Assembly (NCBI GenBank): GCA_019637075.1
Contig: JAHBWI010000001.1
Span: 806,001 to 870,000, forward strand
DNA from: Nitrospiraceae bacterium
GTDB lineage: Bacteria > Nitrospirota > Nitrospiria > Nitrospirales > Nitrospiraceae
Length of the DNA: 64,000 bases
Direction of reading: 5' to 3'
Part shown: positions 7,881-26,592 of the stretch, piece by piece
Numbering within the stretch: the stretch's first letter is position 1
Layout of the letters: each line of letters opens with the position of its first letter
Program-made: the position numbers and the translations under genes
Notes under the pieces: generated by a model
Seen by the model: only the letters and a program-made list of their open reading frames with translations
Databases searched by the model: none
What the model was told of the DNA's origin: nothing

Positions 7881-7908
7881 GATCGCACCTCTTGATCCGA
7901 TGGTCGTC

Positions 7909-8184: not shown

Positions 8185-8465
8185 CAGATGATGAGCCCCC
8201 GGTCGCGCACCAGCTTTTGTTTGATCATCGTGAACATCTTCTGGTAGTCCACTTGCCCCTCTTCGATCTGGCGTTCGTATTGCTTCATCATCTGGCGAAT
8301 CTCGGCATTCAGGCGATCCTCCAAGGACAATTCTTCTGTCATCGTGTGCTCGAGAGCCTCACGCAACGCCTTGCGGTCTCCCGTGACCTCCAGAAAGTCG
8401 AGCGCCTGTAAGCGAGCGATCAAGGACTCCGCCATATGATGAACCCGTTCTTTCGCCAACCTCAT
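8184..8465 (-). CDS. DUF507 family protein (first copy)
   Basis: A 93-residue helical protein related to the next gene: both have an amino-terminal helix with a conserved H-x-x-x-x-L pattern, a middle acidic helix (L-S-L-E-D-R-L-N-A-E-I here) and a final K-x-x-x-x-I-K helix. The ATG at 8465 follows GAGGTAGG. Tandem DUF507 genes are known from several deltaproteobacterial and Nitrospirota genomes, from memory. The two may form a heterodimer; this is inference. Confidence 0.8.
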   Translation of the reverse strand: MRLAKERVHHMAESLIARLQALDFLEVTGDRKALREALEHTMTEELSLEDRLNAEIRQMMKQYERQIEEGQVDYQKMFTMIKQKLVRDRGLII

Positions 8466-8504
8466 GCGCCTACCTCGTATGCGGCCTGTGAGATATGATC
8501 GGCG

Positions 8505-8921
8505 TTACGTGACGGGCGAACCAGGAGCGGGCTCGATCGGCTCGACACGAATGCTGGCGGCCGCCATCACCTGCCGAAGCACCGACGCATCGCCGACCAC
8601 TCGACCGATGACATTCACACGATCAGCTGGAACGGGATCGGCCCCCATGCTCATGGGTGTGCGGCCGAAAAAAATCGCCAAAACCTGCCCGGCTCCCCAA
8701 AAAGCCACATCCCCAACCTTCACCTGGGTGGTGGCAGTTTCCCGATGGTCCTTAACTCCGGGAACTTTGAAATAGAACTCTTCCCCCCACACATTCAATG
8801 GACCCTCGGCAGGCAAGGCGCGATAGACTTCTTGTGCCGTCCGATTGCCCTTGAGTTCCGCTTCGATTTGAACCCCACCCACGCGGATGCGGATACGTTT
8901 TCCCTGGCCGTTCGTCATCAT
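8505..8921 (-). CDS. Cyclophilin-like fold protein (DUF369/TM1367-like)
   Basis: A 138-residue protein. Segments R-I-R-V-G-G-V-Q-I-E-A-E-L, A-x-x-V-Y-R-A-L-P-x-E-G-x-x-N-x-W-G-E-E-F-Y-F and V-G-D-V-A-F-W-G are characteristic of the cyclophilin-like beta-barrel family that lacks proline isomerase residues. In that family the barrel is thought to bind a ligand, but no activity is established. Two adjacent ATGs (8921, 8918) are possible starts, and no strong ribosome binding site is seen. It faces the YprB-like nuclease across a 141-base divergent gap. Confidence 0.75.
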   Translation of the reverse strand: MMTNGQGKRIRIRVGGVQIEAELKGNRTAQEVYRALPAEGPLNVWGEEFYFKVPGVKDHRETATTQVKVGDVAFWGAGQVLAIFFGRTPMSMGADPVPADRVNVIGRVVGDASVLRQVMAAASIRVEPIEPAPGSPVT

Positions 8922-9062
8922 AGTCCCGCCATTCGCTCTCAAAATGACATGAAAAGACCTGGTGCGGTGAGAACGCTGAAAATCCGCGCCAGCAGCGGAC
9001 TCTAACTTGTTTATCCCTTGAAATCAAGGCTACAATCCCCAGTAGTTCGAGACCATCCCGAC

Positions 9063-9848
9063 ATGTTGACCTCCACCTTCGTTCATCTGGCCGGCATCGG
9101 TCCCTCGACCGAACGGCGACTCTGGCAGCACGGCGTACGTGAGTGGTCGACCTTTCTCCAGGAGCCAGAGGTCCCGGGTATTTCACCCGGCCGCAAAGCG
9201 CTCTACGACGGCCAGCTCCTTGCCGCCCAAGCAGCGCTGGACCAGGGCGATGCCGCCTACTTCGCGCGGTGCCTTCACTCCAGGGATCATTGGCGCTTAT
9301 TCCACACCTTTGGAGCCCGGGCCCTCTATCTAGATATCGAAACGACTGGGACATCCGCACAGGAAGGAGCGGTCACGGTAGTGGGCTTGTATCGATCTGG
9401 ACGCATGACCACCTTGATTCGACACGACTCGCTTTCGCAGGAACGTCTCCAGGAGGCAATCGACGCATCGGACCTACTCATCACGTTTTTTGGCAGCGTC
9501 TTCGACGTGCCGTATCTTAAGACTCAGTTTCCGGGGCTACGCGTGGAGCTGCCCCACTTCGATCTCTGTTTTGCCGCCCGACGGCTTGGCCTGCAAGGCG
9601 GCCTCAAACAGATCGAACGCGAATTGGACATCACCCGTGCCGACGATCTCCAAGGACTCGACGGATGGGAAGCCGTGCAGCTCTGGCAACGTCACTGTAG
9701 TGGCGACGAAGATGCGCTCGACCGGCTCGTCCGTTACAACGAAGCCGATACCAAGAATCTTGAGCCACTTGCCGTCATGGTCTACGAGCAACTTGTCGCT
9801 CAGTATGGCCCACCCGCGGCGACGACATTCGGAACGGGTACCAGATAA
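9063..9848 (+). CDS. YprB-like RNase H-fold exonuclease domain protein
   Basis: A 261-residue protein. The amino terminus (LAGIGPSTERRLWQHGV) looks like a helix-hairpin-helix-type segment. From about residue 90 a DEDD-type nuclease fold follows: L-Y-L-D-I-E-T-T-G carries the first Asp and Glu, F-F-G-S-V-F-D-V-P-Y the second Asp, and R-Y-N-E-A-D-T-K-N-L the last. This is the arrangement of the YprB family (RNase_H_2), inferred to degrade nucleic acid ends. I chose ATG 9063; an upstream TTG at 9018 has no support. Its TAA overlaps the next ATG (TAATG). Confidence 0.8.
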   Translation: MLTSTFVHLAGIGPSTERRLWQHGVREWSTFLQEPEVPGISPGRKALYDGQLLAAQAALDQGDAAYFARCLHSRDHWRLFHTFGARALYLDIETTGTSAQEGAVTVVGLYRSGRMTTLIRHDSLSQERLQEAIDASDLLITFFGSVFDVPYLKTQFPGLRVELPHFDLCFAARRLGLQGGLKQIERELDITRADDLQGLDGWEAVQLWQRHCSGDEDALDRLVRYNEADTKNLEPLAVMVYEQLVAQYGPPAATTFGTGTR

Positions 9849-10615
9849 TGCCGATCTGGATGGCACAGGGGAGCACCCACCAAGGGCTTGTCCGCTCGTC
9901 CAATCAAGATGCGTTTCTCGTGGACAATCACGCGCGCCTTTGGGCGGTGGCGGACGGGATGGGCGGGCACCCCGGAGGCGACATCGCAAGCGCTCTGGTC
10001 ATCGAGACACTCGCAAAACTCGCCCCATCATTGGACCGCACCTCTGCCATGACCGAGGAGATGCGAAAGGCCGCCTTCACTGGCATGCTGCACCAGGCGC
10101 ATGGGGCAATACTTGCCTACGTTGCGGTCCACCCAGAATACCGGAATATGGGCACGACGCTGGTTTCGGCCCATGCATGGAACGCAAGTCCGTCCCACCT
10201 TTTGATTGCCAACGTAGGCGACAGTCGCGCTTATTTAGTGCGAGAAGGGTCCATTAGGCAATTGACCCGCGACCACACCCTGGTCGAAGATTATATTCGC
10301 CTCGGCTACCTCACAGCGGCGCAGGCGGCCACACATCCGGAGCGCCATGTTCTAACCCGCGCAATGGGTTTGGGCCAAGCCGTAACGGTTGATCTGTTTC
10401 CCACCGTCCTCCAGCATGACGATGTGGTGATTCTCTGCTCCGACGGCCTGACGAAAATGTTGAACGACCAGCATATCCTCGAAGTTACACGTGCTTCGCA
10501 AGGCAACCCGGCGTCACTCCCCCAGAAGTTGATCCAGGCCGCCCTGGAGAACGGCGGCGTCGACAATGTCACCGTCGTCATCTGCACCGGCACAGCCGAG
10601 CAAGAGGGCAATTAG
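9848..10615 (+). CDS. PP2C-family Ser/Thr protein phosphatase
   Basis: A 255-residue soluble phosphatase with the PP2C metal-binding motifs: S-N-Q-D-A-F near residue 18, A-D-G-M-G-G-H near 36-42, G-D-S-R-A-Y near 125, and L-C-S-D-G-L-T followed by D-N-V-T-V-V. These coordinate two Mn/Mg ions. It overlaps the nuclease gene by one base, so the two are coupled. A second PP2C gene lies at 37570 beside a Ser/Thr kinase and FHA protein; this one has no kinase neighbour and may act on the same or another kinase. Confidence 0.93.
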   Translation: MPIWMAQGSTHQGLVRSSNQDAFLVDNHARLWAVADGMGGHPGGDIASALVIETLAKLAPSLDRTSAMTEEMRKAAFTGMLHQAHGAILAYVAVHPEYRNMGTTLVSAHAWNASPSHLLIANVGDSRAYLVREGSIRQLTRDHTLVEDYIRLGYLTAAQAATHPERHVLTRAMGLGQAVTVDLFPTVLQHDDVVILCSDGLTKMLNDQHILEVTRASQGNPASLPQKLIQAALENGGVDNVTVVICTGTAEQEGN

Positions 10616-10657
10616 GCATTGACAACCCCCGGAACCAGCAGGTAGCCTTTGCCCCGA

Positions 10658-11590
10658 ATGGATGCAAATTTCCTTCGTATGATTGCCTATCTGTTTGACG
10701 ACTCGTTCGTTCGGCGCTCACGGCTCAGTTGGTTCCCGATCCTTCCTCTCATAGGCTTGCTGATGTCCGCCACGGCCTATGCTGAGGATCCGAAGGATCC
10801 GGAAACCACATTGCGCCTTTTGGTACGCGCCAACGCCGAACGGGATCTGACCACCATGTCGAAATACATGGCGCACGACGCCGATGCGATCGGATACACG
10901 CTCGACGGCCGGAAATATCTCGGATGGGACCAGCTCGCCGATGAAATGCGCAGCGAGTTCGAATCGGTCGTGAAACTCGAAATTCCGATCACCGACTTAA
11001 AAATGTGGACGCGCGGTGACGTGGCTTGGTTCGCCATGGAACTGGAGTACATCCGTTATGTGACCGAACGACAGATGACCCAGCGCATCGCCTGGCCTTT
11101 GCGCGAAACCGGCGTCCTGGAACGTCGGGACGGACGATGGATGCTGGTTTCGTGGCACGAGTCGTCCCGGCATCAGGACGGCGGCATGGTCGGCACCCGT
11201 ACGGGATCCGCCGGACTCCTTCATCGGATGTCGGATACCCCGGCCCAGACAGTCGAATCGTACGACCTGAGCGGTGAATGGGAAGTGACGGAGATCGAAG
11301 AAAACAAATCCTATCGCGCGACCCTGGATCGCCAGGGGAACGGCCCCTATACCTGGCAAGGTGGCCAATTCACCACGACCAGCTTCAAAGATCGCCGGTG
11401 GCAGGGCACTTGGACTCAGACCGGCAATGACCGAGAGGGTGGCTTTGAGATCGTCCTCTCCGAAGATGGTACCCAGGCCAAGGGCATTTGGTGGTACCTC
11501 CGTGTGGGAAACCGAAACAATATCCCACCACGACAGCACGGCGGCAGCGTTGCCTGGAAACGACTGACTCCCCCGCCGTCGACTCCATAG
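10658..11590 (+). CDS. Exported SnoaL-like protein with lipocalin-like tail
   Basis: About 310 residues. A signal peptide with an unusually long positive front ends at T-A-Y-A-E. Residues about 45-160 match the NTF2/SnoaL fold used by DUF4440-type proteins (L-R-L-L-V-R-A-N-A-E-R-D-L then beta strands ending R-R-D-G-R-W-M-L-V-S-W-H). The rest (D-L-S-G-E-W-E-V-T-E onward) resembles a small beta-barrel, with S-G-x-W near its start as in lipocalin-like domains. No catalytic residues are evident. A TTG at 10649, spaced well from AGGTAG, is an alternative start. It precedes the copper monooxygenase-like gene by 81 bases. Confidence 0.65.
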   Translation: MDANFLRMIAYLFDDSFVRRSRLSWFPILPLIGLLMSATAYAEDPKDPETTLRLLVRANAERDLTTMSKYMAHDADAIGYTLDGRKYLGWDQLADEMRSEFESVVKLEIPITDLKMWTRGDVAWFAMELEYIRYVTERQMTQRIAWPLRETGVLERRDGRWMLVSWHESSRHQDGGMVGTRTGSAGLLHRMSDTPAQTVESYDLSGEWEVTEIEENKSYRATLDRQGNGPYTWQGGQFTTTSFKDRRWQGTWTQTGNDREGGFEIVLSEDGTQAKGIWWYLRVGNRNNIPPRQHGGSVAWKRLTPPPSTP

Positions 11591-11671
11591 ATACAGCTGT
11601 ACGACGGAGCACCCCATGGGTGCCTGATTCATACCCGTGTGGCCAATCCACCGATACCTGAAGGAGGGGCT

Positions 11672-12676
11672 ATGAACCGTGTGCTGACGACAATGTGCCT
11701 GATCCTTGGAATGACTGGTGCCGCGTTCGCCGACGGAGGGCACGATCACCATGCCATTCCCACAATGCCGAGTCTCGGAGAGACCAAGCTTGCTATCACT
11801 GATCAAACCGTGGCACTGACGTTCGGACCGATCGACCTGCCGACCTCACACGAGGGTGACTTAGCGGCCAGCATGCCCAAGAAGGTCTTCCAACTCCCGG
11901 AAGACATGTACATGATCGGGTACAAGTCCGAGGTGTTTACCAAGGACGGGCGACCGCTTCCCAAGAATTACCTGCACCACATCCTAATGATGAACAATGA
12001 CAAACCCAGCGTGTCCTGCGACGGGGAACCCCTGTTCTTCGCGGGAGCCGGACTCGAAATGACCGAAGCCCGCTTTCCCGAAGGCTATGGGGTGAAGCTC
12101 GGAAAGGGACAGAACCTCATGTCCATCGTCGCCTTTTACCATAAGGCACCGCCGACCAAAGACGTGATGGCGCGGTTTACCATGTACGTTGCGCCCAAGG
12201 GGACGAAGGTCCAGGAAATGGACGTCTACCAGGTGGGCGTGAACATCGTCTGCTACAGCAAGTTCGGACAGCGCGGTGCGGATCAGACGGACGAAGGCAT
12301 CGAAATTAAGCCGGGTGTCACCATTCACAGCGCCCCCTTGAAGTTCAACATGGACGGCTGCGTGAAATTCGCCTATCCCCACGGGCATGATGAGCTTCTG
12401 CTCATCGCCCTGGAAAACAAGACGACGAAAGAGACGTTGCTTCGGACCGTACCAGATGTGGATTCAGAGGGAACCTTCCGTGACTTCCTCCCACACCAGG
12501 TTTACAAGGATGCCAAGGGCTTTCCGATCACTAAGAAAGATGATTACGAGATGGTGATGGTGCATCACCATCCGCTTCAGAACCCAAATATCCAGCACGG
12601 GATGGGGAACTATCTCCTCTATATGACACCGGGCTCTTGTCAGCCCGGCACCAACACTGCAGCCGTTCAGCCTTAG
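11672..12676 (+). CDS. Probable PHM/DBM-type copper monooxygenase-like exported protein
   Basis: A 334-residue protein with a signal peptide cleaved after A-F-A (residue 20) and a clear GGAGGGG site before ATG 11672. The layout matches the two jelly-roll domains of copper type II, ascorbate-dependent monooxygenases (peptidylglycine and dopamine beta-monooxygenases). Copper H site: H102 and H103 in L-H-H-I-L and H157 in F-Y-H-K-A. Copper M site: H237 and H239 in P-H-G-H-D and M311 in H-G-M-G-N-Y-L-L-Y-M. All six ligands have counterparts. The mature amino terminus is His-rich (D-G-G-H-D-H-H). Substrate unknown. A hairpin follows the gene at 12690. Confidence 0.6.
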   Translation: MNRVLTTMCLILGMTGAAFADGGHDHHAIPTMPSLGETKLAITDQTVALTFGPIDLPTSHEGDLAASMPKKVFQLPEDMYMIGYKSEVFTKDGRPLPKNYLHHILMMNNDKPSVSCDGEPLFFAGAGLEMTEARFPEGYGVKLGKGQNLMSIVAFYHKAPPTKDVMARFTMYVAPKGTKVQEMDVYQVGVNIVCYSKFGQRGADQTDEGIEIKPGVTIHSAPLKFNMDGCVKFAYPHGHDELLLIALENKTTKETLLRTVPDVDSEGTFRDFLPHQVYKDAKGFPITKKDDYEMVMVHHHPLQNPNIQHGMGNYLLYMTPGSCQPGTNTAAVQP

Positions 12677-13032: not shown

Positions 13033-16000
13033 ATGTCGTCGCCTGAACCTGCTATTCAGTTTCTCCTCGCGAATGCGCACGCGGAGGAAATCAAACTGGT
13101 TTCATCCAGTCTGCGAGGCTTTTTCCCCAACTGCCGCATCGAGGCGGTGTACACCTCAGACGATGCGATTGCCGCCAGCCAAGAAGGCGTTTGGCACATC
13201 ATCCTGGTCGACCAAGACCTTGCGCCGGACAGTGGTGTCGACATCATTTCCCGGCTCCGACGGAATGCTTCCTATGCCGCGGTAATTCTGCAAACCGACC
13301 GGACCGATTCCGAGACCGCCATCCGAGCCCTGCAAAGCGGTGTCGACTTTCTACTGTTTAAGAATTCCCCGGCCTTCCTGACCGAACTATTGTTCTACGT
13401 TCAGGAAGCAATCGAAAAACGCGATCTTCGAACCAAATTAGACGAAACATTTCAGCGCCACCTTCGGTTAGTCGAGACCCTCAGCGATCTGTTTTACGAA
13501 TTGGATCGTGAAGGGCGGTTCGTCTACCTGAGTCCCGGGGTCACCAGCCTGCTGGGTTACACGCCTGAAGAGCTTGCCGGCCGGCACTACTCCGTCCTGT
13601 TCTCCTCCATCCAGGAGCCACTCGCGCGATTTCGCGTCAATGAACGTCGTGCAGGAAGCCGGTCGATCCGACAGTTGGAAATCCCATTACAGAAGAAAGC
13701 GCTCCCCAACCAGCCAGTCGACACCATTGTGAGTGAACTGACCGCCAAGGGCCTCTACGACAGTAACAATCGATACCTTGGCACAGTCGGACTGATTCGG
13801 GATGTATCGCGACAAAAAGAACAACAGGGACGCCTTCTGGAATTGGAAGGGAAATTGCGCGAATCGGACCGCCGTCTTGAATTGAGTCGGGAGGCTGCGA
13901 CCGTTTCCGATCGGCTGCAGCAACCATTGACGGGGATCCTGAACGATTCCCAACGACTGTTGGCCACGCTGCAGCATCTGAAGATTGAACAGGTGCTCGA
14001 GAGCATGGCAGCCCATGCGGTGCAGGCCAGCCAGTTGAGTCGGCGACTCTCAGAGGCAATGGCGCCTCAGGCGCGGCCATCGACGCTCGTCGACCTCAAC
14101 ACCATTATTAACGAAACCCTGCAACGACTGCATGACAAACCGGATCATGTCCCGCTTCGCGTCACGACGCATCTCGATCCGCATCTACCGGCGATTTTGG
14201 GCACGCCAGAGAGCATCGGCACGCTCCTGCGCGTTCTGATTGCCTACTCACAGCGACACATGGACGCGACGGTTCCGCTCCGCATACGCACCAACACATT
14301 CGGGTTGTCCCAGACAGTCCCCCCCAAGGCAATCACCGCCGGGGACAATACTCCGACAGGCGAGTGCGTCACGCTGACCATTCAACACCAGCCAGACACT
14401 GACATGGTTCGGGCTATCCCAACTGAGATAGATACGGCCTCCGCAGTGGATTTCATCCAAGCGCATCAAATCGTGCACCACTTGGGTGGTGCGATTGAAA
14501 TCGACAGCAGAAGACAGGCGGGCCTTTTGATCACCGTGAGCATACCCGCAATCCATCAGGCGGAGCCTGCACATTCCCTGGTCTCAAGGGAACCGACGTC
14601 GGCCTACACTGAGGACAAATCGCCCATCGAATCAGACCAGCAAAGAACGGAACCCTCGGTGGATCGCCGGCGGTTTGCCCGCCGACCGGTGGCTTTCCCC
14701 GTGCATTTGGCAATCGGCACCAGCGGATATCCTGGGCTAATCCGAAATATCAGTGCGGGCGGAGCACTGATGGCGCTCAATGAGGTGGCCAGCTCACTTC
14801 ATATGCAACCGGCCTACCTCCTGCTGAGGACTCCGGTAAGCTTGCTTGAATTGCAGGGCATCGTGTACGAACGCCCATCCTCACCCAATTCCGTTCAACC
14901 GCACACAAGAGACATCGCCATTTCCTTTTCAGTTTCCACAGATCACGACCGGAGAGTCATCGATTCACTGCTCGACGGAGCAGTAGCCGGCTCAACCTCC
15001 TTGGCGATTGAAGGTCTGATTCCGCTCCCCACTCCAAGCTCCAAACGTGATGCCGTGCAACAGTCAGAGGAAATCGCAAAGGAGCGCAGGGAATCAGTGC
15101 GTCTGAAGTTAGCCATTCCTATACGGGTAAATTTACCCGATGAACAGCCTTCGCGCCCGCTTGGACTCATCGTCAATCTCAGCCGAAGCGGGGCGGCCGT
15201 CGAACTACCAGGTCGCCCCGACAATTTCACGCTTCAGCAAGCCATTCAATTGATACCGACCGGTCCGGTGGCGGCGATAGCCGGAGCCCTCCCTTCGGCC
15301 ACCCCCGATATGGCATGGAATGGCTCCATCGTCTGGGTGCGGCCGCTCCCAGTCCGCGATACCAGCGTCCCAAGTCGTGCGGGAGACCTTCCTGTTCAAC
15401 TGGGAGTCCGCTTCCAGCACGTGAGTGGGCGGCCGGATGCCGTCGTCAATCGGCTGCTCGCTGCAGGCTCGAGTTCAGCCTTCGATCTTGCCGAACCCAT
15501 TGCGGATTCGGGAATCGTTACCTTCTCCAGAACCATACGAAATCGCCAGGGACTCTCGGTAGCTCTTTGCCAGGATGTCCTCCGCCAAGCGCAAACCATG
15601 CCCTTGCAGATCGTGGTGCTTGCCCCCGAATTCGGGCAGACCCAGACGGCTTATCTCGCCTTGTCGTACTACCTCGCAGCGCGAGGGGTCCGCGTCATCA
15701 GGTTCGACTACAGCAACCACATCGGCTTGAGCGAAGGCTCCCCTGAATGTGTCAGGATGTCATCGATCGAGGATGACCTGGATGCCATCTTGTTGTGGGT
15801 CCGGCAACAATGGCCGGACGCGGCCTCCACCCTGATCGCCCCTGACTTGGCAGGCCGAATCGCCGTACGGCGCTCCGATTGGCATCCGGCCTTGAGGAGC
15901 CTCCTACTGCTCAACCCCACTTTCGACCTGCGGAAAAGCCTCGAGAAACTGCATCGCAGAGACCTCGTGCAGAACCACCAGGACCACACCCGCTTTGGCA

Positions 16001-17211
16001 TCGGCAATCTCATGGGCCTGAATCTCGACATCGATCGATTTCTCGCTGACACCGTCCAATGCAACTTCACCGACTTTGAATCTTCACGGACCGACCTGGC
16101 GACCTGCCGCGTACAGACAACGATCATTCGTTCCTCCCCGGAAACCGGAGACTTCTTGATTCCGCCGCCTTCTGAAGATCTTATTGCCGAAGCCGTCAGT
16201 GCGTTGGGCGCTCAGGGACGTCTTGAGACCATCCCGGGCCTCACCCTCTCTGCAGCAGAGGCGGTCCCAGCCATCCAGGACCAGTGGGAGCGGTTCCGCC
16301 AGCTCTTCATGAGTCCATCAGCACGCTTCGTCCCAAGCCCGTTGAGTCCCGCGTTGATCGGACGGACCATTGCGATCCGCAGCCGACTCGAACGGGACAA
16401 ATTGCGTACGACAGACACCGCGGGGGAAGCGACACCGGCTGACCTGTGGACCGATTTCACCACACTGACGGGATCGTTAGATGAACTGCCCGCCTTTTGG
16501 CAATTGACCGACCACCTGTATCAACTGGCACAGCCGGTCCATGAAGGCGCGAGACTGCTCGACGTCGGCTGCGGAGTGCACTCGTTCGCGCGACTGCTTC
16601 TCCTGAATCTTTCCTACCGGCTCCGCTCGCAAGCCTGGCGGCATTCTACCCCTGTTCGTTACGTCGGAGTCGATTTTTCCTACAAAGCGCTGGGCGAGGC
16701 CCGCAAGTCTGCGCGAGAGACGCTCGATCGCCTTGACACGATGTTTTCCGGACGGATATCGAGCCATCCCCCTGTAAAGGCGAACTGGTCGTTGAGTCGC
16801 TCCATCGAATCACTTCCGTTTGCAGCGGACTCGTTCGAGCGCATCGTCGCAAACCTTGTGATCTGCTTTTGTCCGTCACCGCTTCACGCCGTCCGTGAAT
16901 TGTTCCGCGTCCTTAAGCCGGGCGGCACACTCGTGCTTAGTTCGTTTCGGAGCGGAACCGATCCGGCTACCATCTACCGGCCGCACCTCCAGGAGTTGGG
17001 GCTGGACGAATTCTCGGGTGAAGCCCGCGCACACCTGATGGTGATGGCGCGACTCTGTAAAAATCTACGTACCGGCTATCTGCCTGCTTTCGAAGAAGAT
17101 TCGTTTGCCAACCTCGTCGCGCATGCGACCCGCACCACGCCTACCATCCAACGGGCTATGACCGGCCAAGCCCTCATCGCCATTGTCGAAAAGCCTGTTT
17201 CCGCTGGCTGA
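13033..17211 (+). CDS. Giant hybrid regulator: REC-PAS-pseudokinase-PilZ-PilZ-LuxD-like-methyltransferase
   Basis: A 1392-residue protein without membrane segments. Domains in order: receiver (1-130, phosphoacceptor D60, K110); PAS (143-260); histidine-kinase-like region (285-505) where the phospho-His position of the H-box is Asp (V-S-D-R-L-Q-Q-P-L, 291-299) and the N-box Asn is missing; PilZ 1 (545-650, R546xxxR550 and N-I-S-A-G-G 572-577); PilZ 2 (685-800, R686xxxR690 and N-L-S-R-S-G 715-720); an alpha/beta hydrolase like LuxD acyltransferase/thioesterase (about 820-1095) with Asp938 where the nucleophile Ser is expected; and a class I methyltransferase (1140-1392, L-D-V-G-C-G 1176-1181). 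The start ATG has only weak upstream signals. PilZ domains suggest c-di-GMP control. It heads a four-gene signalling block. Substrate unknown. Confidence 0.8.
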   Translation: MSSPEPAIQFLLANAHAEEIKLVSSSLRGFFPNCRIEAVYTSDDAIAASQEGVWHIILVDQDLAPDSGVDIISRLRRNASYAAVILQTDRTDSETAIRALQSGVDFLLFKNSPAFLTELLFYVQEAIEKRDLRTKLDETFQRHLRLVETLSDLFYELDREGRFVYLSPGVTSLLGYTPEELAGRHYSVLFSSIQEPLARFRVNERRAGSRSIRQLEIPLQKKALPNQPVDTIVSELTAKGLYDSNNRYLGTVGLIRDVSRQKEQQGRLLELEGKLRESDRRLELSREAATVSDRLQQPLTGILNDSQRLLATLQHLKIEQVLESMAAHAVQASQLSRRLSEAMAPQARPSTLVDLNTIINETLQRLHDKPDHVPLRVTTHLDPHLPAILGTPESIGTLLRVLIAYSQRHMDATVPLRIRTNTFGLSQTVPPKAITAGDNTPTGECVTLTIQHQPDTDMVRAIPTEIDTASAVDFIQAHQIVHHLGGAIEIDSRRQAGLLITVSIPAIHQAEPAHSLVSREPTSAYTEDKSPIESDQQRTEPSVDRRRFARRPVAFPVHLAIGTSGYPGLIRNISAGGALMALNEVASSLHMQPAYLLLRTPVSLLELQGIVYERPSSPNSVQPHTRDIAISFSVSTDHDRRVIDSLLDGAVAGSTSLAIEGLIPLPTPSSKRDAVQQSEEIAKERRESVRLKLAIPIRVNLPDEQPSRPLGLIVNLSRSGAAVELPGRPDNFTLQQAIQLIPTGPVAAIAGALPSATPDMAWNGSIVWVRPLPVRDTSVPSRAGDLPVQLGVRFQHVSGRPDAVVNRLLAAGSSSAFDLAEPIADSGIVTFSRTIRNRQGLSVALCQDVLRQAQTMPLQIVVLAPEFGQTQTAYLALSYYLAARGVRVIRFDYSNHIGLSEGSPECVRMSSIEDDLDAILLWVRQQWPDAASTLIAPDLAGRIAVRRSDWHPALRSLLLLNPTFDLRKSLEKLHRRDLVQNHQDHTRFGIGNLMGLNLDIDRFLADTVQCNFTDFESSRTDLATCRVQTTIIRSSPETGDFLIPPPSEDLIAEAVSALGAQGRLETIPGLTLSAAEAVPAIQDQWERFRQLFMSPSARFVPSPLSPALIGRTIAIRSRLERDKLRTTDTAGEATPADLWTDFTTLTGSLDELPAFWQLTDHLYQLAQPVHEGARLLDVGCGVHSFARLLLLNLSYRLRSQAWRHSTPVRYVGVDFSYKALGEARKSARETLDRLDTMFSGRISSHPPVKANWSLSRSIESLPFAADSFERIVANLVICFCPSPLHAVRELFRVLKPGGTLVLSSFRSGTDPATIYRPHLQELGLDEFSGEARAHLMVMARLCKNLRTGYLPAFEEDSFANLVAHATRTTPTIQRAMTGQALIAIVEKPVSAG

Positions 17212-17305: not shown

Positions 17306-18589
17306 ATGCAGGGCACGGTCTTGCACAACCACACCCTCTCTGCCTCCATGATATCGAGCGTCGCTGCAACCGCAAGGGCTGTCGGCCAGTTGGCCCGGGA
17401 CGTCTGCGGAGAGGCAGATCTCCCCTCCGCCTGCCGACGCATTCTCGAACACCTCACCCTTCATGCCGGCGCCTCGAATGGTTCACTGTGGCTACTCGAC
17501 CAAGACCATGCATGCTTCCGACGAATCGCCGCCGTGGCTCCGGCTGCCTTGCCACAAGACGACAGCTTGCCGGCCGCAGATCACCCACTGTCGACCCTCC
17601 TCAATCACCGACGCGTCGCCGTTCATCTGACAGATCCGGAAGCCGGTCGAGCCCTGCGTCTTGCCGATGCTGCCATTGCCTTGCCGTTTTTGAATCGCAA
17701 GGAACTGTTCGGCTTTTGCACGTTAGGCCGCCCTTCTGACCCCATACGCTGGGATGAGGATACAGCAGCGATTATGCACGCGCTTGCCGATGTGGCCGCC
17801 AGTGCACTTGAACATCAACGCAGAGAGGAAGAACTGCGCCGGTCCTCAGCGCTGCTGCGCCGAACCGACCGTCTACGCTCTCTCGAGATCATGGCCGGCG
17901 GCTTTGCCCATGAGATCCGCAACCCGCTCACCTCCATCAAGACGTTCGTACAACTCGCCCCGCAGCGCCAGCATGACCCCGTATTCATTCCTGAATTCAG
18001 CCGGGTGGCGATCGAAGACGTGCATGAGATCGAGCGCCTGCTCCATGACATCCTGGATTATGCCCGGTACATGAGCCCACATCCCACAGAAGAAGATCTG
18101 AACGAGGTCGTTGCGTCGTGCATGTGTTTCGTTTCCGCGAAAGCCTCGAGCCGGGGAATACAGTTGCGTACCGAACTGGACCCCAAACTACCTTTGTTGT
18201 CGCTGGACAGACAGCAAATCAAGCAGGTGCTGATGAACCTCCTCCTGAATGCCCTCGACGCCACGCCGGACAGCGGCGGAGAGATTTGCGTCAGGACTCG
18301 AATGGGAATGAATCCCGACGGCAGCTCGTGCGTTGAATTGCGGGTTGAAGACCATGGCCGAGGAATCCCGGCCGATCAAATCGAACACATATTCGATCCG
18401 TTTTTCACCACGAAGCATTCGAACAGTGAAAGCGAGGGGTCGGGGCTAGGCCTGACCATCGCTCACCAGATCGTCCGCGAACACCATGGCGTGTTGGGCG
18501 TCGAGAGCCATGTCGGAACAGGATCGACCTTCACGGTTTGTTTGCCCACGCTCAGAACACATACGACGGCTCCGGCACCACGGGAGTAA
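17306..18589 (+). CDS. GAF-domain sensor histidine kinase (NtrB-like)
   Basis: A 427-residue cytoplasmic kinase. Residues about 30-165 form a GAF-like sensor domain. The DHp domain has the intact H-box F-A-H-E-I-R-N-P-L with phospho-His at 202, and the ATPase domain has N-L-L-L-N-A (N-box), D-H-G-R-G-I (G1) and G-S-G-L-G-L-T (G2). It precedes the NtrC-type regulator by a single base, and the regulator's ribosome binding site lies inside its last codons, so this is a cognate pair. No ribosome binding site is obvious at ATG 17306; ATG 17348 is an alternative. Confidence 0.92.
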   Translation: MQGTVLHNHTLSASMISSVAATARAVGQLARDVCGEADLPSACRRILEHLTLHAGASNGSLWLLDQDHACFRRIAAVAPAALPQDDSLPAADHPLSTLLNHRRVAVHLTDPEAGRALRLADAAIALPFLNRKELFGFCTLGRPSDPIRWDEDTAAIMHALADVAASALEHQRREEELRRSSALLRRTDRLRSLEIMAGGFAHEIRNPLTSIKTFVQLAPQRQHDPVFIPEFSRVAIEDVHEIERLLHDILDYARYMSPHPTEEDLNEVVASCMCFVSAKASSRGIQLRTELDPKLPLLSLDRQQIKQVLMNLLLNALDATPDSGGEICVRTRMGMNPDGSSCVELRVEDHGRGIPADQIEHIFDPFFTTKHSNSESEGSGLGLTIAHQIVREHHGVLGVESHVGTGSTFTVCLPTLRTHTTAPAPRE

Positions 18590-20080: not shown

Positions 20081-20217
20081 GCTAAGGTTCTACATATTGT
20101 GGCGTCACGCACACGCACGCCAATATATTGATTCATTCGCCTAAGTGCACGAAAAGGCATGGGAATTGCCTTTTATCACCACGGCGCGAAATGCATCTCA
20201 CCCGGGGAGTGCTCTGG

Positions 20218-21369
20218 ATGGGGACTTATACGCAGGCCAATAACATCAGCGGAAAACCGTCGGTACTCGTCGTCGATGACGAAGCAGGACCGCGCGACGC
20301 GCTGAAAGTCATCCTTCGCCCCTTCTTCACGATTCATTCAGCCGAGAACGCCAAGTCCGCGCTCGAAGTCCTCAAAGACCAACACATCGACCTGATCACC
20401 CTCGATCAAAAACTTCCCGACCGCCAAGGCATCGATCTTCTGCAGGACATCAAACACGACCATTCGGACGTCGAGGTCATCATCATCACCGGGTACGGCA
20501 GCCTCAAGTCGGCCATGGAAGGTATTCGTCACGGTGCCGCGGGCTACCTCCTCAAGCCCTTCAACGTGACCGAGCTGATTACCCTGATCAATCAGACCCT
20601 CGAAAAGAAACAACGGTTGGACTACCTGCGGTCCTTTCTCCGCACGTCTACGGCGCTTTGGGGCACGGAGCAGGAGACCGCACGGGCGTGGAAAGACATT
20701 CAATCGAACTACTTCGGGATCGGCAAGTCGTCCGGTGAATCGGAAGCGGCCTCAGGCGATGCGACCTCCCTGATCCCGCTTCTATCCGACCTATTGGAGG
20801 CCAAAGACCGCCAGCTCCTCAATCACTCAAGCCGCGTAAGCTTCTACGCATCGCTCCTCGCTAACCGGCTCAATCTCCCGGTGGCCGAGCAAAAGGCGTT
20901 GGCACTTGGGGCTTTTCTGCATGATATCGGAAAGATCGCACAGGCGGACTATTCGTTCAAGGCCGAATATCAGACCCGCGGCGATCAAGTAGACGGCGAT
21001 CACCAGCATCCGGACATCGGCTCCCGCATGCTGCTCCCATTGGGCTTTCCGGCTGAGGTGGGGCAAATCGTCGCGTACCACCACGAGCGATTCGATGGTC
21101 TCGGCTATCCACATGGCCTTCGGGGAGAAGGCATTCCCTTGTTGGCAAGAATCGTCTCCATTGCCCAGGCCTTCGACAATCTGACCGTCGACGTACCGGG
21201 CCGGCAACCCCTTTCAATCGATGATGCGATACGGCAAATCACGCTTCAAGCCGACACACACTTCGATCCAATGCTCACGGAACTGTTTGCGCGGGTCGTA
21301 CGCGAGTGCAAATCCTCGCTTCCCGCGCTGGCCATCGCCGCGACGCCGACATCGAACCCCGAGCCCTGA
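20218..21369 (+). CDS. Response regulator with HD-GYP domain
   Basis: A 383-residue protein: receiver domain (about 15-135, phosphoacceptor Asp in T-L-D-Q-K-L-P-D) joined to an HD-GYP domain (about 190-370). The HD part has H-S-S-R-V, H-D-I-G-K-I and H-x-x-x-G-S-R-M-L, and the signature H-H-E-R-F-D-G-L-G-Y-P is complete, so c-di-GMP phosphodiesterase activity is likely from family knowledge. The ATG at 20218 follows GGGGAG; a reading from 20128 has no support. As c-di-GMP turnover enzyme it is a natural partner for the two PilZ domains of the protein at 13033. Confidence 0.9.
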   Translation: MGTYTQANNISGKPSVLVVDDEAGPRDALKVILRPFFTIHSAENAKSALEVLKDQHIDLITLDQKLPDRQGIDLLQDIKHDHSDVEVIIITGYGSLKSAMEGIRHGAAGYLLKPFNVTELITLINQTLEKKQRLDYLRSFLRTSTALWGTEQETARAWKDIQSNYFGIGKSSGESEAASGDATSLIPLLSDLLEAKDRQLLNHSSRVSFYASLLANRLNLPVAEQKALALGAFLHDIGKIAQADYSFKAEYQTRGDQVDGDHQHPDIGSRMLLPLGFPAEVGQIVAYHHERFDGLGYPHGLRGEGIPLLARIVSIAQAFDNLTVDVPGRQPLSIDDAIRQITLQADTHFDPMLTELFARVVRECKSSLPALAIAATPTSNPEP

Positions 21370-21376
21370 AGACCCG

Positions 21377-23062
21377 CTACTCCTCGTCCACCACGCTGCC
21401 GATCATATCCGCAGCCGCAGCCCGCGCGCTCTTCGTCACCGTTACTCCCGCCAGCATTCGAGCAATTTCGTCCTCGCGCCCACTCCGATCCAACCGGCGA
21501 ATCTGGGTGACCGTCCGCTTTTGCCGGACTTCTTTCTCCACGAAGAAATGACTGTGGGCCTGTGCGCAGACTTGAGGAAGATGGGTCACGCTCAACACCT
21601 GGTGGTACCGGGCCAAGCCGCGCAGACGCTTCCCCATAATCTCCGCCACCGCGCCCCCCACCCCGGAATCCACCTCGTCGAAGATCAAGACCGGAACCTG
21701 GTCGGCATCCGCCAGGATCGTTTTCAAGGCCAACATGACTCGGGACAGTTCACCACCTGAAGCCACCCGCGCCAGCGGCTTCAACGGCTCGCCTGGGTTC
21801 GCACAGAAAAGGAACTCGACCGTGTCGGTGCCGGTGGGGCCATAGGCGCTCTTATCGGTGGAAGGGGACACCGACACGGCAAATCGTGTCCGTTCCATGC
21901 GCAAGGCACTGAGTTCCCGAGTAACCTGACTGGCGAGTTTTCCCGCCGCATCCTTTCGCTTTTGCGAAAGCCGATCGGATAACTTCCGTAGCGCCTGCTC
22001 CCGTACGAGCTGGTCGCGCTCCAACGCCGCCAATTCAACATCCGCCCCCTCAAGACGAGAGACCTGTTCCTGCAACGCCTCCCGCTGAGCCAAGGCCGCG
22101 TCTAGCGATCCCCCGTACTTCTTGCTCAATCGCCGCAACCGGTCCAACCGTTGCTCGATTTCAACCAAACGCTCGGGATTGTCTTCGACGGCATCGCGGT
22201 AGCGCCGCACCTGATCGGCCAAGTCTCGAAGCTGAACCGTGCAGTCCGACAGCACCTGACGCCAAGACACCGTGCCGGGATCGATCGTTTCCAACCGAGT
22301 GATCAGTTTACTCCCCTGACCGAGAGCGGCCAGAATTCCGGCCTCGTCCGCATAAAGCAGATCGTAGACCTGGTCCGACAGTTCCCGGAGTTGACGCCCA
22401 TGAGTCAGACGGGGCCGTTCACGCTCCAGTTCTTCATCTTCGCGCGCTTGAAGCTCGGCCTCGGTCAATTCTTGCAACTGAAACCGAAGCAAATCCTCAC
22501 GTTCGCGACGCCTGGCTGTGTCCTGTCTCAACTGTTCGATGACCGCTGCTTGCCTCTTCCAAGACTCGTACGACTCCGCGTACTCTCGGCGAAGCGGATA
22601 CAGCCGCCCGAATGCGTCCACAGCCTCCAACTGGGCGGCGGGAGACAACAGGGACTGCTGGTCGTGCTGGCCATGGATATCGACCAACGCCCCCCCCAAT
22701 TGCTCCAGCAAATGGACGGGACACAGATTGCCGTTGAGAAAGGTCCGATGACGGCCGGTGCGCGACAAGACCCGGCGGACGATGATCTCCGTTTCGCCGC
22801 CTCTGACGAAGCCCTTGGCCTCGAGCGTGGCGAGCACGGGATGATCGGAAGGAAGCAGAAAGGATGCTTCGAGGTCGGCCTCCTCGGCGTCGGCACGGAT
22901 GTGCTCAGCCGAGGCTCGGCCACCTACGAGAAGTGTGACGGCATCGATGAGGAGTGATTTCCCGGCCCCGGTTTCACCGGTAAGAACGGTGAACCCCTTG
23001 TCGAATTGCAGAGCCAGCTGCTCGATGACGCCGAAATTCGCGATTCGCAGCTCGGTCAGCAT
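21377..23062 (-). CDS. recN: DNA repair protein RecN
   Basis: A 561-residue SMC-like ATPase acting early in double-strand break repair. The amino terminus (LRIANFGVIEQLAL) and Walker A G-E-T-G-A-G-K-S are typical, the central part is a long charged coiled coil, and the carboxy-terminal half has the signature V-A-S-G-G-E-L-S-R-V-M-L-A-L-K and Walker B V-L-I-F-D-E-V-D-S-G. It follows trxA by 20 bases on the minus strand and ends seven bases from the convergent HD-GYP gene. Confidence 0.97.
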   Translation of the reverse strand: MLTELRIANFGVIEQLALQFDKGFTVLTGETGAGKSLLIDAVTLLVGGRASAEHIRADAEEADLEASFLLPSDHPVLATLEAKGFVRGGETEIIVRRVLSRTGRHRTFLNGNLCPVHLLEQLGGALVDIHGQHDQQSLLSPAAQLEAVDAFGRLYPLRREYAESYESWKRQAAVIEQLRQDTARRREREDLLRFQLQELTEAELQAREDEELERERPRLTHGRQLRELSDQVYDLLYADEAGILAALGQGSKLITRLETIDPGTVSWRQVLSDCTVQLRDLADQVRRYRDAVEDNPERLVEIEQRLDRLRRLSKKYGGSLDAALAQREALQEQVSRLEGADVELAALERDQLVREQALRKLSDRLSQKRKDAAGKLASQVTRELSALRMERTRFAVSVSPSTDKSAYGPTGTDTVEFLFCANPGEPLKPLARVASGGELSRVMLALKTILADADQVPVLIFDEVDSGVGGAVAEIMGKRLRGLARYHQVLSVTHLPQVCAQAHSHFFVEKEVRQKRTVTQIRRLDRSGREDEIARMLAGVTVTKSARAAAADMIGSVVDEE

Positions 23063-23082
23063 CGCGATGGAGACAAGGCCGT

Positions 23083-23430
23083 TTAGGCACTACCGGAATG
23101 TTGCGCCAGCAGCGAGTCGATGATTTCCTTGAACTGCCGCTTCGGGCGAGCGCCGACTAACCGTTCCACCGCCTGCCCGTTCTTGAAAAACAGGATTGTC
23201 GGAATGCTCATCACCTGATACTTGCCAGCGATCTCAGGGTTTTCGTCCGTATTCAGCTTGCGGACCTTGATCTTGCCCGCATATTCCTTGGCCAATTCGT
23301 CGATGATCGGAGCCACCATCTGGCACGGTCCGCACCACACAGCCCAGAAATCCACCATCACGAGTTCCGGCGCCTTCATGACATCGGCGTCCCACGTTGC
23401 TTCGCTTACTTTGAGTGCGTCACCTGCCAC
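23083..23430 (-). CDS. trxA: Thioredoxin
   Basis: A 115-residue thioredoxin with active site W-C-G-P-C (C33, C36) and the cis-proline segment S-I-P-T-I-L-F-F. It reduces disulfides in the cytoplasm and may support the peroxiredoxin and ribonucleotide reductase in this window. The start is GTG at 23430, placed directly after an AAGGAGGAG site; the earlier ATG codons lie inside or before that site and are rejected. A promoter is visible at 23487-23514. Confidence 0.97.
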   Translation of the reverse strand: MAGDALKVSEATWDADVMKAPELVMVDFWAVWCGPCQMVAPIIDELAKEYAGKIKVRKLNTDENPEIAGKYQVMSIPTILFFKNGQAVERLVGARPKRQFKEIIDSLLAQHSGSA

Positions 23431-23486
23431 AGCGTCTCCTCCTTGCATCAAATCGAGTTCACATCTGCCGTGAACCAGAGGGTCAT

Positions 23487-23514
23487 CCTATAACACGATT
23501 TTGCGGAGAGTCAA
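23487..23514 (-). promoter_or_regulatory. Sigma-70-type promoter of trxA-recN
   Basis: On the minus strand TTGACT (23514-23509) is followed after 16 bases by TATAGG (23492-23487), about 57 bases before the trxA start codon. Spacing and box quality are good. Confidence 0.6.
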
Positions 23515-23522
23515 ATAAGCCG

Positions 23523-24071
23523 CTACCATACCCACTCTGGCGGAATTCCGAACCACCAGTCGTTGGGATTCGTCGTCCGCCACAGCCGCTGCTCTTCAAA
23601 GAAACGCGCCGCACCTGTGTCATCCAAACGCCGCGCCATCGCCTCCGTAAGCTCCGCCTGTTGAAGTACAGCTTCCTGGATGAGTTCCTTGGCGATCCGT
23701 GCCATCACATCGGGGGGATCGACCAGGTCGCTGAGGTGCCAAGCGCCAAGATTGAGATACACCTGCTCGACGCGTACCCACTGATCGGTCGCCGCGAGGT
23801 GATCGAGGTAGGCGTGAACGGCACGGTACACGTAGGCCAACGCCACATAGTTCTTGGCCGAAGGCGCCGACCGGAGTTCCGCATCACAGGCTTGGAGCGC
23901 TCGACGAAAATCTCCGGCCTGCAGAAACACTTTAGCGCGTTCCAAGTGCCGTGACGGCGGTACGTCTCCAACAGGCGGCGCAGGAATCGCCGCCACAGTG
24001 GAGGTCACGACAAGGGCCACGATGAATACACACCCTGCCCAACAGTTCCGGGTTCTTGACACCACCCGCAC
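23523..24071 (-). CDS. Exported TPR-like protein
   Basis: About 182 residues. A hydrophobic segment (CVFIVALVVTSTVAAIPA) serves as signal peptide or anchor; the following part is helical with tetratricopeptide-like pairs (ERAKVFLQAGDFRRALQACD, then A-L-A-Y-V-Y-R-A-V). The end is rich in Trp, including N-D-W-W-F-G-I-P-P-E-W-V-W. The start is uncertain: GTG 24071 after GCGAGGTG is my choice, while a longer reading would overlap the end of lptD. Function unknown; it is downstream of lptD on the same strand. Confidence 0.55.
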   Translation of the reverse strand: MRVVSRTRNCWAGCVFIVALVVTSTVAAIPAPPVGDVPPSRHLERAKVFLQAGDFRRALQACDAELRSAPSAKNYVALAYVYRAVHAYLDHLAATDQWVRVEQVYLNLGAWHLSDLVDPPDVMARIAKELIQEAVLQQAELTEAMARRLDDTGAARFFEEQRLWRTTNPNDWWFGIPPEWVW

Positions 24072-24102
24072 GGTCCGCACCTCGCAGATCCGCGGCCTGT
24101 AA

Positions 24103-26592
24103 CTAGTAGCGACCGGTCGGCATCGACTGCGTCGGAACAACACTTTGTGCCCGGCCGTAAGGTCCGCCCGGAGCCGCCCACGGCAATCCCCGATCCCCGA
24201 TCATCAACGGGCTGAGGATCGATCGCACCACGATCGTGCCGAAGTTTTCCGTCCAGCCGATGCCCGTCATGCTGAGCATGAAGGAGTAACTTTGACGATC
24301 CGGGAACTGCAGGTAATACAGGCCCAGCGACCAGCACTTGCATGGATTCTGGTACAGCGCCACCACATCGTATTCCGGGCTCCGGCCGCCTTTGACATCG
24401 TAGTAGCCCTTGGCCCCGAAGGTCCAGCCCCAGGGAGTCCGAAATCCCGCGCCGGCCGTGACGAATTGTACCTCGGCTGTGGGCGCGTAGACTTCATTGA
24501 AAGAGATGGGATTCCAGATGTCCCCACGTCGGACCCGATTTCCATCACGACTGAAGCGTTGTCCGATCTCCGCATACCAATAGTTGGACTGCTGCACCCG
24601 CAAGTCCGTGTTCCACTGGCTGAACGTCCCACGATAAGGATCCAAGAAAGCATCCACGGTAAGATAGGAATTGGTCGGAGGCAACATCTGCCCGCCGGTC
24701 TGATTCCTCGTGAGCGTCTGCTGGGACCCGGGCGGATTCAAGAAATCCGGGGCTGTGTTCCCGATGACGGCCCGCATCCAGAGATCGGACATCTTTCGCC
24801 CCTGTACCGCCACGGTGGCCGGCTGAAGCGGCTGGGTCAGCGATCCCAAAAACGGCAGGATGCCGGGTGTGAACTCTCTCGCCCTGGTCTGCACCGCCCC
24901 CACGTGATAACTCTGGGCCAGCGTTAGGTCCAGCCAATTGAAAGATTGACCATTGATTTGCTGCTCGAGCAACCGGCTGCGCAACGCATAGGTCAGCAAG
25001 TTTTTTTTCGGCAAATCGTCGATCTGGTCGATCTGCGCAATCTTGGACTGGTCGCTCCCCGGCACATACTCATACATCACGCTTGGTTCGATCGTGTGTA
25101 ACAGGCTCCCGCCTTCGCTACCCGTATATCGTCGGCTCAGCTTCGAGGTGGCGTCCAACGAGGCCCAAAACGTTTCGCGATGGATGGCATCCGAGCTTTC
25201 GATGCCGCGCGTGTAATAGACTTCCTTAAATTTGAACTGCGGCGTGAAGCCGACCAAATGGCCGACGTCGATGACGTCCGTGGCCAAGCCCGGGGTGAAA
25301 TCCATGCGATTCACCCCAAACCCCTGCTCGCGAAAGAAATTGACGAAATTGGTGTCCATGTTGACCAGAAACGGCAGCCCGAACGGCGACGTATTCGGCA
25401 GCACGTATCCGACTTCCGGCAGGCGCTGGAAGGTGTCGGGACCACCGAAATTTAACGGCTGCAGGAATTGCCCGAGCAGGTATGCGTTCCCGTACGGCAA
25501 ACGCTGGGTAGCCAAGAGGCTGGACTCGCCGCTGGGGGAGGCCCGTTGTGCGCCTGAATTGCTTAATTGTTGCAAATAGGTGCGGTCCGAGACGAACGAC
25601 GCTTGCCCGCGAATCAACAGAGTGTCGGTCACCTGCTGCACATGAGTTCCGCTGAAGATGCCGCGGAGCCGCTGCTCGCCTCCGCCGGCCTGATCCACAC
25701 CCGAGACATTCGGCAGCTTCGTCTGTTGCAGCACGCTCGCAAACCATTCTCCCCGCGAGCGGCGATCAAGATAGTAGCGATAGGCGAAATCGCTGCCGTA
25801 CCCAAGGTTCGAATAGTAGGACGGTGAAATCGTCATATCCTGGCTGGGATTGATCGCCCAAAAGTATCCCTGCTGATAGTGGAGGCCGAAGCGGTTGTCA
25901 TATCCCGGCGTGGGAATCAGGAACCCGCTATGACGGTTGTTCAAGGGATAGGTGAGCGTAGGGATCGGGAGGATCCGCGCGTCATTCATGCACAGCCATC
26001 CCCGTTTCATGGCAACGCTTTCGCCGGTCCGAACGTCGAGGTCTTCGAACTTGAAGCGCCAGGCCGGAGTCTCCCCTTCACCGGCATCGCAATTCGTGAA
26101 CGTTCCGTCCTTGATCCGGTAATGGTCTTCGGACATACGTTGCAACAGTCGGCCGGCCAAATAAGAGTTGCTCAATTTGACGTAGAGCGACCCCGTGGTC
26201 ACCACTCCGGCCTCGGTGTTGACGTTGAGTTCCAATTGGTCGGAACGGATGTCGGAGGTCGGATCGACCAGGTGGACATGCCCGGTCGCAATGAGCGTCC
26301 CCGGCAAGCTCTTGATCGTGACGTGATCGGCGGTCAGCTTGAACGGACCTTGGGTGATCACCACCGACCCGTCGGCCTCGTAGATATCCTGCTCTTGCAG
26401 ATGATCGATGCGCTCGGCAGTGACGTTCAGAGGCTGATTGGTGGGGGACGGCGCGGCGACGGCCGGCGCAGGCTGTGCCCATAACGGAAGGGCAGCCAGG
26501 AGCCAGCAGTACAAAGACCACCCGAGCGCGAGCCCTAAGAGGGCCAGACGCCCGCGTGATGTGGGGCAACAGCCAACCCCCATTTCAACCAC
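24103..26592 (-). CDS. lptD: LPS-assembly protein LptD
   Basis: An 829-residue outer-membrane protein that inserts lipopolysaccharide into the outer leaflet. A signal peptide ends at P-L-W-A-Q (about residue 40). Residues about 55-160 form the OstA/LptA-like jelly roll (V-T-A-E-R-I-D-H-L-Q-E-Q-D-I-Y-E-A-D-G-S), and the rest is the 26-strand barrel region rich in alternating aromatic strands. Start GTG 26592 overlaps the folC stop by 8 bases; ATG 26583 is a possible alternative. Its presence shows a diderm envelope with LPS. Confidence 0.93.
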   Translation of the reverse strand: MVEMGVGCCPTSRGRLALLGLALGWSLYCWLLAALPLWAQPAPAVAAPSPTNQPLNVTAERIDHLQEQDIYEADGSVVITQGPFKLTADHVTIKSLPGTLIATGHVHLVDPTSDIRSDQLELNVNTEAGVVTTGSLYVKLSNSYLAGRLLQRMSEDHYRIKDGTFTNCDAGEGETPAWRFKFEDLDVRTGESVAMKRGWLCMNDARILPIPTLTYPLNNRHSGFLIPTPGYDNRFGLHYQQGYFWAINPSQDMTISPSYYSNLGYGSDFAYRYYLDRRSRGEWFASVLQQTKLPNVSGVDQAGGGEQRLRGIFSGTHVQQVTDTLLIRGQASFVSDRTYLQQLSNSGAQRASPSGESSLLATQRLPYGNAYLLGQFLQPLNFGGPDTFQRLPEVGYVLPNTSPFGLPFLVNMDTNFVNFFREQGFGVNRMDFTPGLATDVIDVGHLVGFTPQFKFKEVYYTRGIESSDAIHRETFWASLDATSKLSRRYTGSEGGSLLHTIEPSVMYEYVPGSDQSKIAQIDQIDDLPKKNLLTYALRSRLLEQQINGQSFNWLDLTLAQSYHVGAVQTRAREFTPGILPFLGSLTQPLQPATVAVQGRKMSDLWMRAVIGNTAPDFLNPPGSQQTLTRNQTGGQMLPPTNSYLTVDAFLDPYRGTFSQWNTDLRVQQSNYWYAEIGQRFSRDGNRVRRGDIWNPISFNEVYAPTAEVQFVTAGAGFRTPWGWTFGAKGYYDVKGGRSPEYDVVALYQNPCKCWSLGLYYLQFPDRQSYSFMLSMTGIGWTENFGTIVVRSILSPLMIGDRGLPWAAPGGPYGRAQSVVPTQSMPTGRY

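Follow-up and report, generated by a model that had tools for sequence, protein, structure and literature searches.

The window analyzed here is a 64,000-nucleotide stretch of the genome of a Nitrospiraceae bacterium (GenBank assembly GCA_019637075.1, contig JAHBWI010000001.1, positions 806,001 to 870,000 of the forward strand). On its plus strand, a single 1392-codon frame at positions 13033-17211, which starts with an ATG and contains no internal stops, encodes a protein that joins a receiver (REC), a PAS domain, a histidine-kinase-like part, two PilZ domains, a LuxD-like alpha/beta-hydrolase, and an S-adenosylmethionine (SAM)-dependent methyltransferase. The gene is followed by those of a soluble histidine kinase, a sigma-54 response regulator, and a probable cyclic di-GMP (c-di-GMP) phosphodiesterase. 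Comparison with related loci (below, G codes stand for genomes and L codes for loci of the comparison set, the window genome being G000) indicates that the hydrolase of this protein lost its catalytic triad together with the loss of a membrane receptor from the adjacent kinase. The parts of the protein are as follows:

13033..17211, plus strand: whole gene, 1392 amino acids, REC-PAS-kinase-like-PilZ-PilZ-LuxD-like hydrolase-methyltransferase, from the reading frame and Pfam
13033..13422, plus strand: receiver-like domain, residues 1-130; Asp60, Thr88, and Lys110 retained, Asn14/Ala15 at the acidic pair
13423..13818, plus strand: PAS domain, residues 131-262; 18 residues invariant across 50 orthologues
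13819..14568, plus strand: histidine-kinase-like domain, residues 263-512, without catalytic residues
13909-13911, plus strand: codon of Asp293, in the kinase-like domain
14659..14997, plus strand: PilZ domain 1, residues 543-655; RxxxR and NxSxxG intact
15070..15468, plus strand: PilZ domain 2, residues 680-812; RxxxR and NxSxxG intact
15508..16257, plus strand: LuxD-like alpha/beta-hydrolase, residues 826-1075; Asp938 in place of the nucleophile Ser, acid and His lost
15844..15846, plus strand: codon of Asp938; Asp in 49 of 50 orthologues and Gly in one, Ser in 67 triad-bearing relatives
16453..17208, plus strand: class I SAM-methyltransferase domain, residues 1141-1392; motif I DVGCGVH

Matches to the Pfam models REC, PAS, PilZ (twice), Acyl_transf_2 (the LuxD family), and Methyltransf_11 were obtained with the window protein, in agreement with the order given by the original prediction, which had been made from the letters alone. 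The hydrolase scored 38.3 with Acyl_transf_2 (cut-off 20.3) and stayed below the cut-off of the NCBIfam LuxD model (37.4 bits versus 420); the methyltransferase scored 50.1 (cut-off 21.2), its motif I lacking the third Gly of GxGxG. The kinase-like part reached 12.4 bits with HisKA, under the cut-off of 26.9. Structural modeling bore out these assignments. The model of residues 823-1392 had a mean predicted local distance difference test score (pLDDT) of 89, and its best fold match was LuxD (PDB 1tht; template-modeling score (TM-score) to target 0.77), while the PAS-kinase part of the model of residues 1-813 (mean pLDDT 75) matched FixL-type kinases.

Full-length orthologues with the same domain order are present in many genera of Nitrospiraceae, in at least 50 genomes, with 29-48% identity. 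The order had been called unfamiliar; no description of it appeared in the literature searched, and we know of no described family that has it, but it is a family trait, not a one-off peculiar to the window. One set of 50 full-length sequences from 50 genomes (1384-1439 amino acids) was aligned, and ratios of nonsynonymous to synonymous substitution rates (dN/dS) were computed for 96 pairs with dS of 0.1-1.0. The median dN/dS was 0.27 for the whole gene, 0.18-0.37 for individual domains, and 0.61 for the linker before the first PilZ domain. Since full-length orthologues occur in 50 genomes and are under purifying selection, a chance or false fusion of separate genes, or a frameshift, is ruled out. 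The gene could also be a decaying relic without function: it evolves far faster than its neighbors (about 29-47% identity among its copies, versus 72-89% for the sigma-54 regulator across the compared genomes), and its three enzyme-like parts are degenerate. This reading is practically excluded by the frame, which is open in all 50 genomes, by the low dN/dS of each domain, and by motif residues conserved in 50 of 50 sequences.

In the receiver, Asp60 is found in all 50 orthologues, Thr or Ser at position 88 in 49, and Lys110 in 48. The window protein has Asn14 and Ala15 where the Mg-binding acidic pair would be, and the "sensing" role first assigned to this domain should be qualified accordingly: the receiver is atypical. 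Both arginines of RxxxR are present in 50 of 50 orthologues in each PilZ domain, and both window domains also carry D/NxSxxG, consistent with the two c-di-GMP-binding parts proposed originally. In the kinase-like part, where Asp at the phospho-His position and loss of the N-box Asn had been noticed, Asp293 and the missing N-box were confirmed; the His site is freely variable across orthologues, with R, K, H, Q, E, T, D, or L. The LuxD-type hydrolase segment R-x-D-xxx-H-x-G-x-S is kept in 50 of 50 orthologues, and the positions of the catalytic triad read D-E-S in the window protein versus S-D-H in 67 relatives; both the substitution of Asp938 for Ser and the absence of a catalytic His had been correctly recognized. 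We conclude that the kinase and hydrolase parts are, as judged by these residues, dead. Because dN/dS is low in every domain, the dead parts must be retained by selection.

Asp nucleophiles exist at this position within the alpha/beta-hydrolase superfamily, haloalkane dehalogenases and epoxide hydrolases being examples, so the chemistry of the hydrolase could have changed with Asp938 as the new nucleophile. The near-fixation of Asp among orthologues would fit this possibility, as would its occurrence in G003 beside the remaining triad Asp and His. Such enzymes depend on the general-base His, however; in the window protein and its orthologues, that residue has been lost or replaced, as has the acid loop. 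Changed chemistry is therefore highly improbable.

The original prediction called the methyltransferase motif intact and the dead parts perhaps scaffolds; on this reading, the protein would be a c-di-GMP-gated active methyltransferase whose dead parts are only scaffold. The window protein has the D-x-G-C-G of motif I, kept in most orthologues, as well as the acidic residue of post-I, and the methyltransferase domain has a dN/dS of 0.19, among the lowest of the domains. In addition, G011 encodes a REC-PAS-PilZ-methyltransferase protein without the hydrolase, still accompanied by a kinase with a seven-transmembrane (7TM) receptor part. "Intact" was nevertheless too generous. The N-G that follows D-x-G-C-G in 71 of 72 relatives outside the long-protein family is V-H here, and its Gly is kept in just 16 of the 50 long orthologues; the post-I acidic residue is lost in 7 of 50, and several motifs are degenerate (DIDGSNT and DVEVGLG, for example). 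The SAM loop is weakened here and has decayed still more in several orthologues, so methylation is probably not the function that the long-protein family conserves, and we regard a c-di-GMP-gated active methyltransferase as an unlikely explanation.

The relatives that retain the triad are shorter and lack the kinase-like insert; they consist of PilZ-PilZ-hydrolase-methyltransferase, with or without REC-PAS. The Ser-Asp-His of the 67 relatives without a kinase-like part aligns with Ser114, Asp211, and His241, the catalytic triad of LuxD. In G004, REC-PAS-PilZ and PilZ-PilZ-hydrolase-methyltransferase are two adjacent genes, and in Omnitrophota the hydrolase-methyltransferase fusion (557-566 amino acids) has no room for PilZ. 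Genomes of genus g18, including Nitrospira defluvii (FP929003), carry a separate active-type copy and a long dead copy; the intact N. defluvii gene lies at L068 4846-7710. In G003 (L088; L213 4072-6495), the triad positions read D-D-H, i.e., Asp has taken the place of the nucleophile Ser but the triad Asp and His are unchanged, and a soluble 464-amino acid kinase is encoded next; this state may represent either an early stage of decay or changed chemistry. The same REC-PAS module was also seen fused to a shikimate-dehydrogenase-like protein (L029 1468-3564 and L036 925-2994).

The genes surrounding the long gene in the window are:

9848..12676, plus strand: PP2C-like protein, SnoaL-like protein, and 345-amino acid protein without a Pfam match; conserved upstream neighbors
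17306..18589, plus strand: soluble GAF-histidine kinase, 427 amino acids, H, N, and G boxes intact, without a transmembrane segment
18591..20003, plus strand: NtrC-type sigma-54 response regulator, 470 amino acids from the ATG at 18591
20128..21369, plus strand: response regulator with HD-GYP, probable c-di-GMP phosphodiesterase; likely start at about 20218
21377..26592, minus strand: RecN-like (SMC_N) protein and LptD; conserved downstream neighbors

This order, from the PP2C-like gene through the long gene and kinase to LptD, is shared with 19 other genomes, with occasional losses of single genes; the arrangement was not seen in the stretch of G018 that was read. The HD-GYP protein keeps the HDIGK and GYP motifs. 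No c-di-GMP riboswitch or other RNA family was found in the window, and a search for sigma-54 promoter sites gave one match in 64 kb, which equals chance expectation, and none at the operon.

At all 38 Ser-type loci with a readable downstream kinase, the gene directly downstream encodes a histidine kinase with a HisKA_7TM domain, single or double. At L094, a locus of Omnitrophota, the kinase appears in two pieces, and in G322, the PilZ-LuxD-methyltransferase protein and the 7TM kinase are naturally fused into a 1641-amino acid polypeptide (L071 4981-9906, the same as L214 4383-9308). Where the Ser is lost, the kinase is soluble (the window clade and G003, with no transmembrane segments, and G026, with 417 amino acids and no 7TM match) or its gene is absent (G012, G020, and G031). 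The window kinase, whose orthologues have no transmembrane segments, occupies the position held by the 7TM kinase in Ser-type relatives and aligns with residues 557-955, the C-terminal GAF-kinase half, of the 1002-amino acid N. defluvii 7TM kinase; most simply, therefore, the membrane half was lost in place. G031 has no separate kinase gene, and its long protein (L157 8188-12495) retains the H-box His within the kinase-like insert.

To count the losses, a tree of the neighboring sigma-54, HD-GYP, and RecN-like proteins was used, because a tree of the enzyme region, which groups all Ser-less members, is made unsafe by fast-evolving rows. On the neighbor-gene tree, the Ser state must have changed at least four times and the 7TM state at least three times. 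G031, which has Gly and no kinase, and G021, which has Ser and a 7TM kinase, are sisters with support of 100/100, and the joint loss thus occurred more than once. We conclude that, outside one exceptional lineage, the triad and the membrane receptor of the neighboring kinase disappear together. The original prediction had missed that the domain order is a family trait, that relatives keep the triad, and that its loss accompanies that of the receptor.

Other enzymes were found beside 7TM kinases. Elsewhere in Nitrospirota, these kinases come after PilZ-FabH, PilZ-acyl-acyl carrier protein (ACP)-reductase-like, PilZ-TENA, or methyltransferase proteins; PilZ-FabH-like or PilZ-acyl-ACP-reductase-like genes stand directly upstream at L222 (7933-9498), L223 (6619-8160), L224 (154-1752), L220 (7911-9713), L229, L230, and L232. 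At two Omnitrophota loci, a single receiver and ketoacyl synthases come next after the enzyme-7TM kinase pair; one of these loci adds a FabG-like reductase, and the other has an upstream acyltransferase and an acyl-ACP-reductase-like protein. The genome of the window itself contains a locus (C3:612000-628000, L219) that is syntenic with the active-type N. defluvii locus, its flanks being 61-85% identical and its kinase 69.5% identical. There, a PilZ-TENA/haem-oxygenase-like gene (4995-6281; PilZ part assigned by eye) stands directly before a double-7TM kinase gene (6560-9565), where N. defluvii has PilZ-PilZ-LuxD-methyltransferase; the enzyme appears to have been exchanged next to an orthologous receptor. 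Various acyl enzymes, each beside the same kind of receptor kinase, would be the expected look of lipid-signal synthases, though not every 7TM kinase has such a neighbor.

By eye, genes resembling those of HMG-CoA reductase, aldehyde dehydrogenase, phytoene-desaturase-like oxidoreductase, and hotdog thioesterase were also seen upstream of 7TM kinases (L248 2537-4207, L238 3171-4544, L236 3103-4785, L240 3112-4611, and L247 2942-3427); one HMG-CoA reductase-like gene appears to carry an N-terminal PilZ-like part.

The ancestral enzyme might instead perform a housekeeping modification of a membrane lipid or protein while the 7TM kinase senses the envelope, the two forming no synthase-receptor pair. 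LptD and the RecN-like protein are indeed fixed neighbors, and some 7TM kinases have no adjoining acyl enzyme, such as those with nothing but a HAD hydrolase at a distance of 240-420 bp. The enzyme-receptor fusion in one genome, the joint loss, and the Omnitrophota fatty-acid clusters fit a synthase-receptor pair better, as does the syntenic locus of the window genome, where the gene ahead of an orthologous 7TM kinase encodes another PilZ enzyme in the same position. A housekeeping role thus seems somewhat unlikely.

Descent of the C-terminal half of the protein from a PilZ-controlled fusion of a LuxD-type hydrolase with a SAM-methyltransferase, encoded beside a 7TM kinase, is well supported by the comparisons. 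On this basis, we think it probable, though by no means certain, that the window protein is a pseudoenzyme regulator derived from a c-di-GMP-gated lipid-signal synthase, now cytosolic and acting on the adjacent circuit. The ancestral acyl hydrolase-methyltransferase would have made a lipid signal for the adjacent 7TM receptor kinase. In the window lineage, the triad was lost, with Ser giving way to a conserved Asp, the partner is a soluble GAF-kinase, and the protein bears an N-terminal REC-PAS and a dead kinase. Binding of c-di-GMP to the two PilZ domains would then most likely alter the action of the PAS/pseudokinase part, the likely contact surface, on the soluble kinase or sigma-54 regulator; the co-encoded HD-GYP protein would lower c-di-GMP and so close the loop. 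The sequences themselves show the descent, the lost residues, their disappearance alongside the receptor, the selection, and the fixed neighborhood; the synthesis of a signal by the ancestor, the binding of c-di-GMP, and the contact with the kinase are what we infer.

Several observations weigh against this pseudoenzyme regulator derived from a signal synthase. The 38 Ser-type loci include many related species and are hence non-independent; G046 has Asn at the nucleophile position yet keeps its 7TM kinase; 7TM kinases without an acyl enzyme exist, as described above; and SAM binding may persist in the window methyltransferase. The model of residues 1-813 is, moreover, of only modest quality (pLDDT 75, predicted TM-score 0.33), and its domain arrangement is for this reason unreadable.

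The protein is built from known parts, and the ancestor proposed for it would operate much as systems already described do. LuxD, the myristoyl-ACP thioesterase of the lux operon, is the top match of the window hydrolase in both sequence and structure; relatives share its triad and the R-x-D-xxx-H-x-G-x-S segment, but all three catalytic residues are missing from the window protein, in which the hydrolase is joined with PilZ and methyltransferase parts, and there is no luciferase. In the quorum sensing of Ralstonia, the methyltransferase PhcB makes methyl 3-hydroxymyristate, which is sensed by the sensor histidine kinase PhcS, with receiver proteins such as PhcR (PMC11960443, PMC8578825). This is the nearest working analogy for the active-type relatives, which we liken to it by arrangement; it differs in that PhcA is a LysR regulator and not a sigma-54 one. 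To our knowledge, LuxD or PilZ parts have not been described for PhcB. PrsK/PrsR of the XrtA/PEP-CTERM system likewise pair a membrane GAF-kinase with a sigma-54 regulator; membership was rejected, as scores fell under the cut-offs of NCBIfam TIGR02916 (111-150 bits for the 7TM kinases listed and 110 for the window kinase, versus 300) and TIGR02915 (440 for the regulator, versus 503).

For contact between the PAS/pseudokinase part and the regulator, NifL-NifA offers a parallel: NifL is a PAS-kinase-fold protein that acts on a sigma-54 activator without phosphotransfer, and the NifL-NifA structure 9qq6 was among the fold matches of the PAS-kinase part. PilZ, hydrolase, and methyltransferase parts are absent from NifL, and a corresponding contact in the window would be by analogy. 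GID1-type hormone receptors are alpha/beta-hydrolases turned non-catalytic receptors; these are plant proteins, however, and they keep the nucleophile Ser and have lost the His.

More broadly, and tentatively, Nitrospirota, as well as some Omnitrophota and Margulisbacteria, may possess an undescribed class of lipid signaling in which a fatty-acyl enzyme directly precedes a 7TM receptor kinase, with frequent gating by PilZ and c-di-GMP in Nitrospirota, and enzymes are swapped between lineages at the same site; the window protein would be a synthase of this kind whose catalysis and receptor were lost together and which now serves the surviving sigma-54 circuit as a cytosolic c-di-GMP regulator. 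The literature searched contained no paper joining PilZ, methyltransferase, hydrolase, and Nitrospira, and none linking HisKA_7TM with quorum sensing; PilZ with autoinducer synthase gave only unrelated work. The family illustrates, through intermediates preserved in living genomes, how a gene can stay in its operon under selection while its active site and partner receptor are lost together. If the ancestral pair was a signal synthase and its receptor, it would hint at cell-cell signaling in Nitrospira, which is central to nitrification and wastewater treatment. Specific testable genes are at hand, above all the intact pair of N. defluvii.

The 345-amino acid protein upstream of the long gene (11639-12676), which has no Pfam match, is 64-84% identical in most compared genomes, and its gene adjoins the long gene where present.

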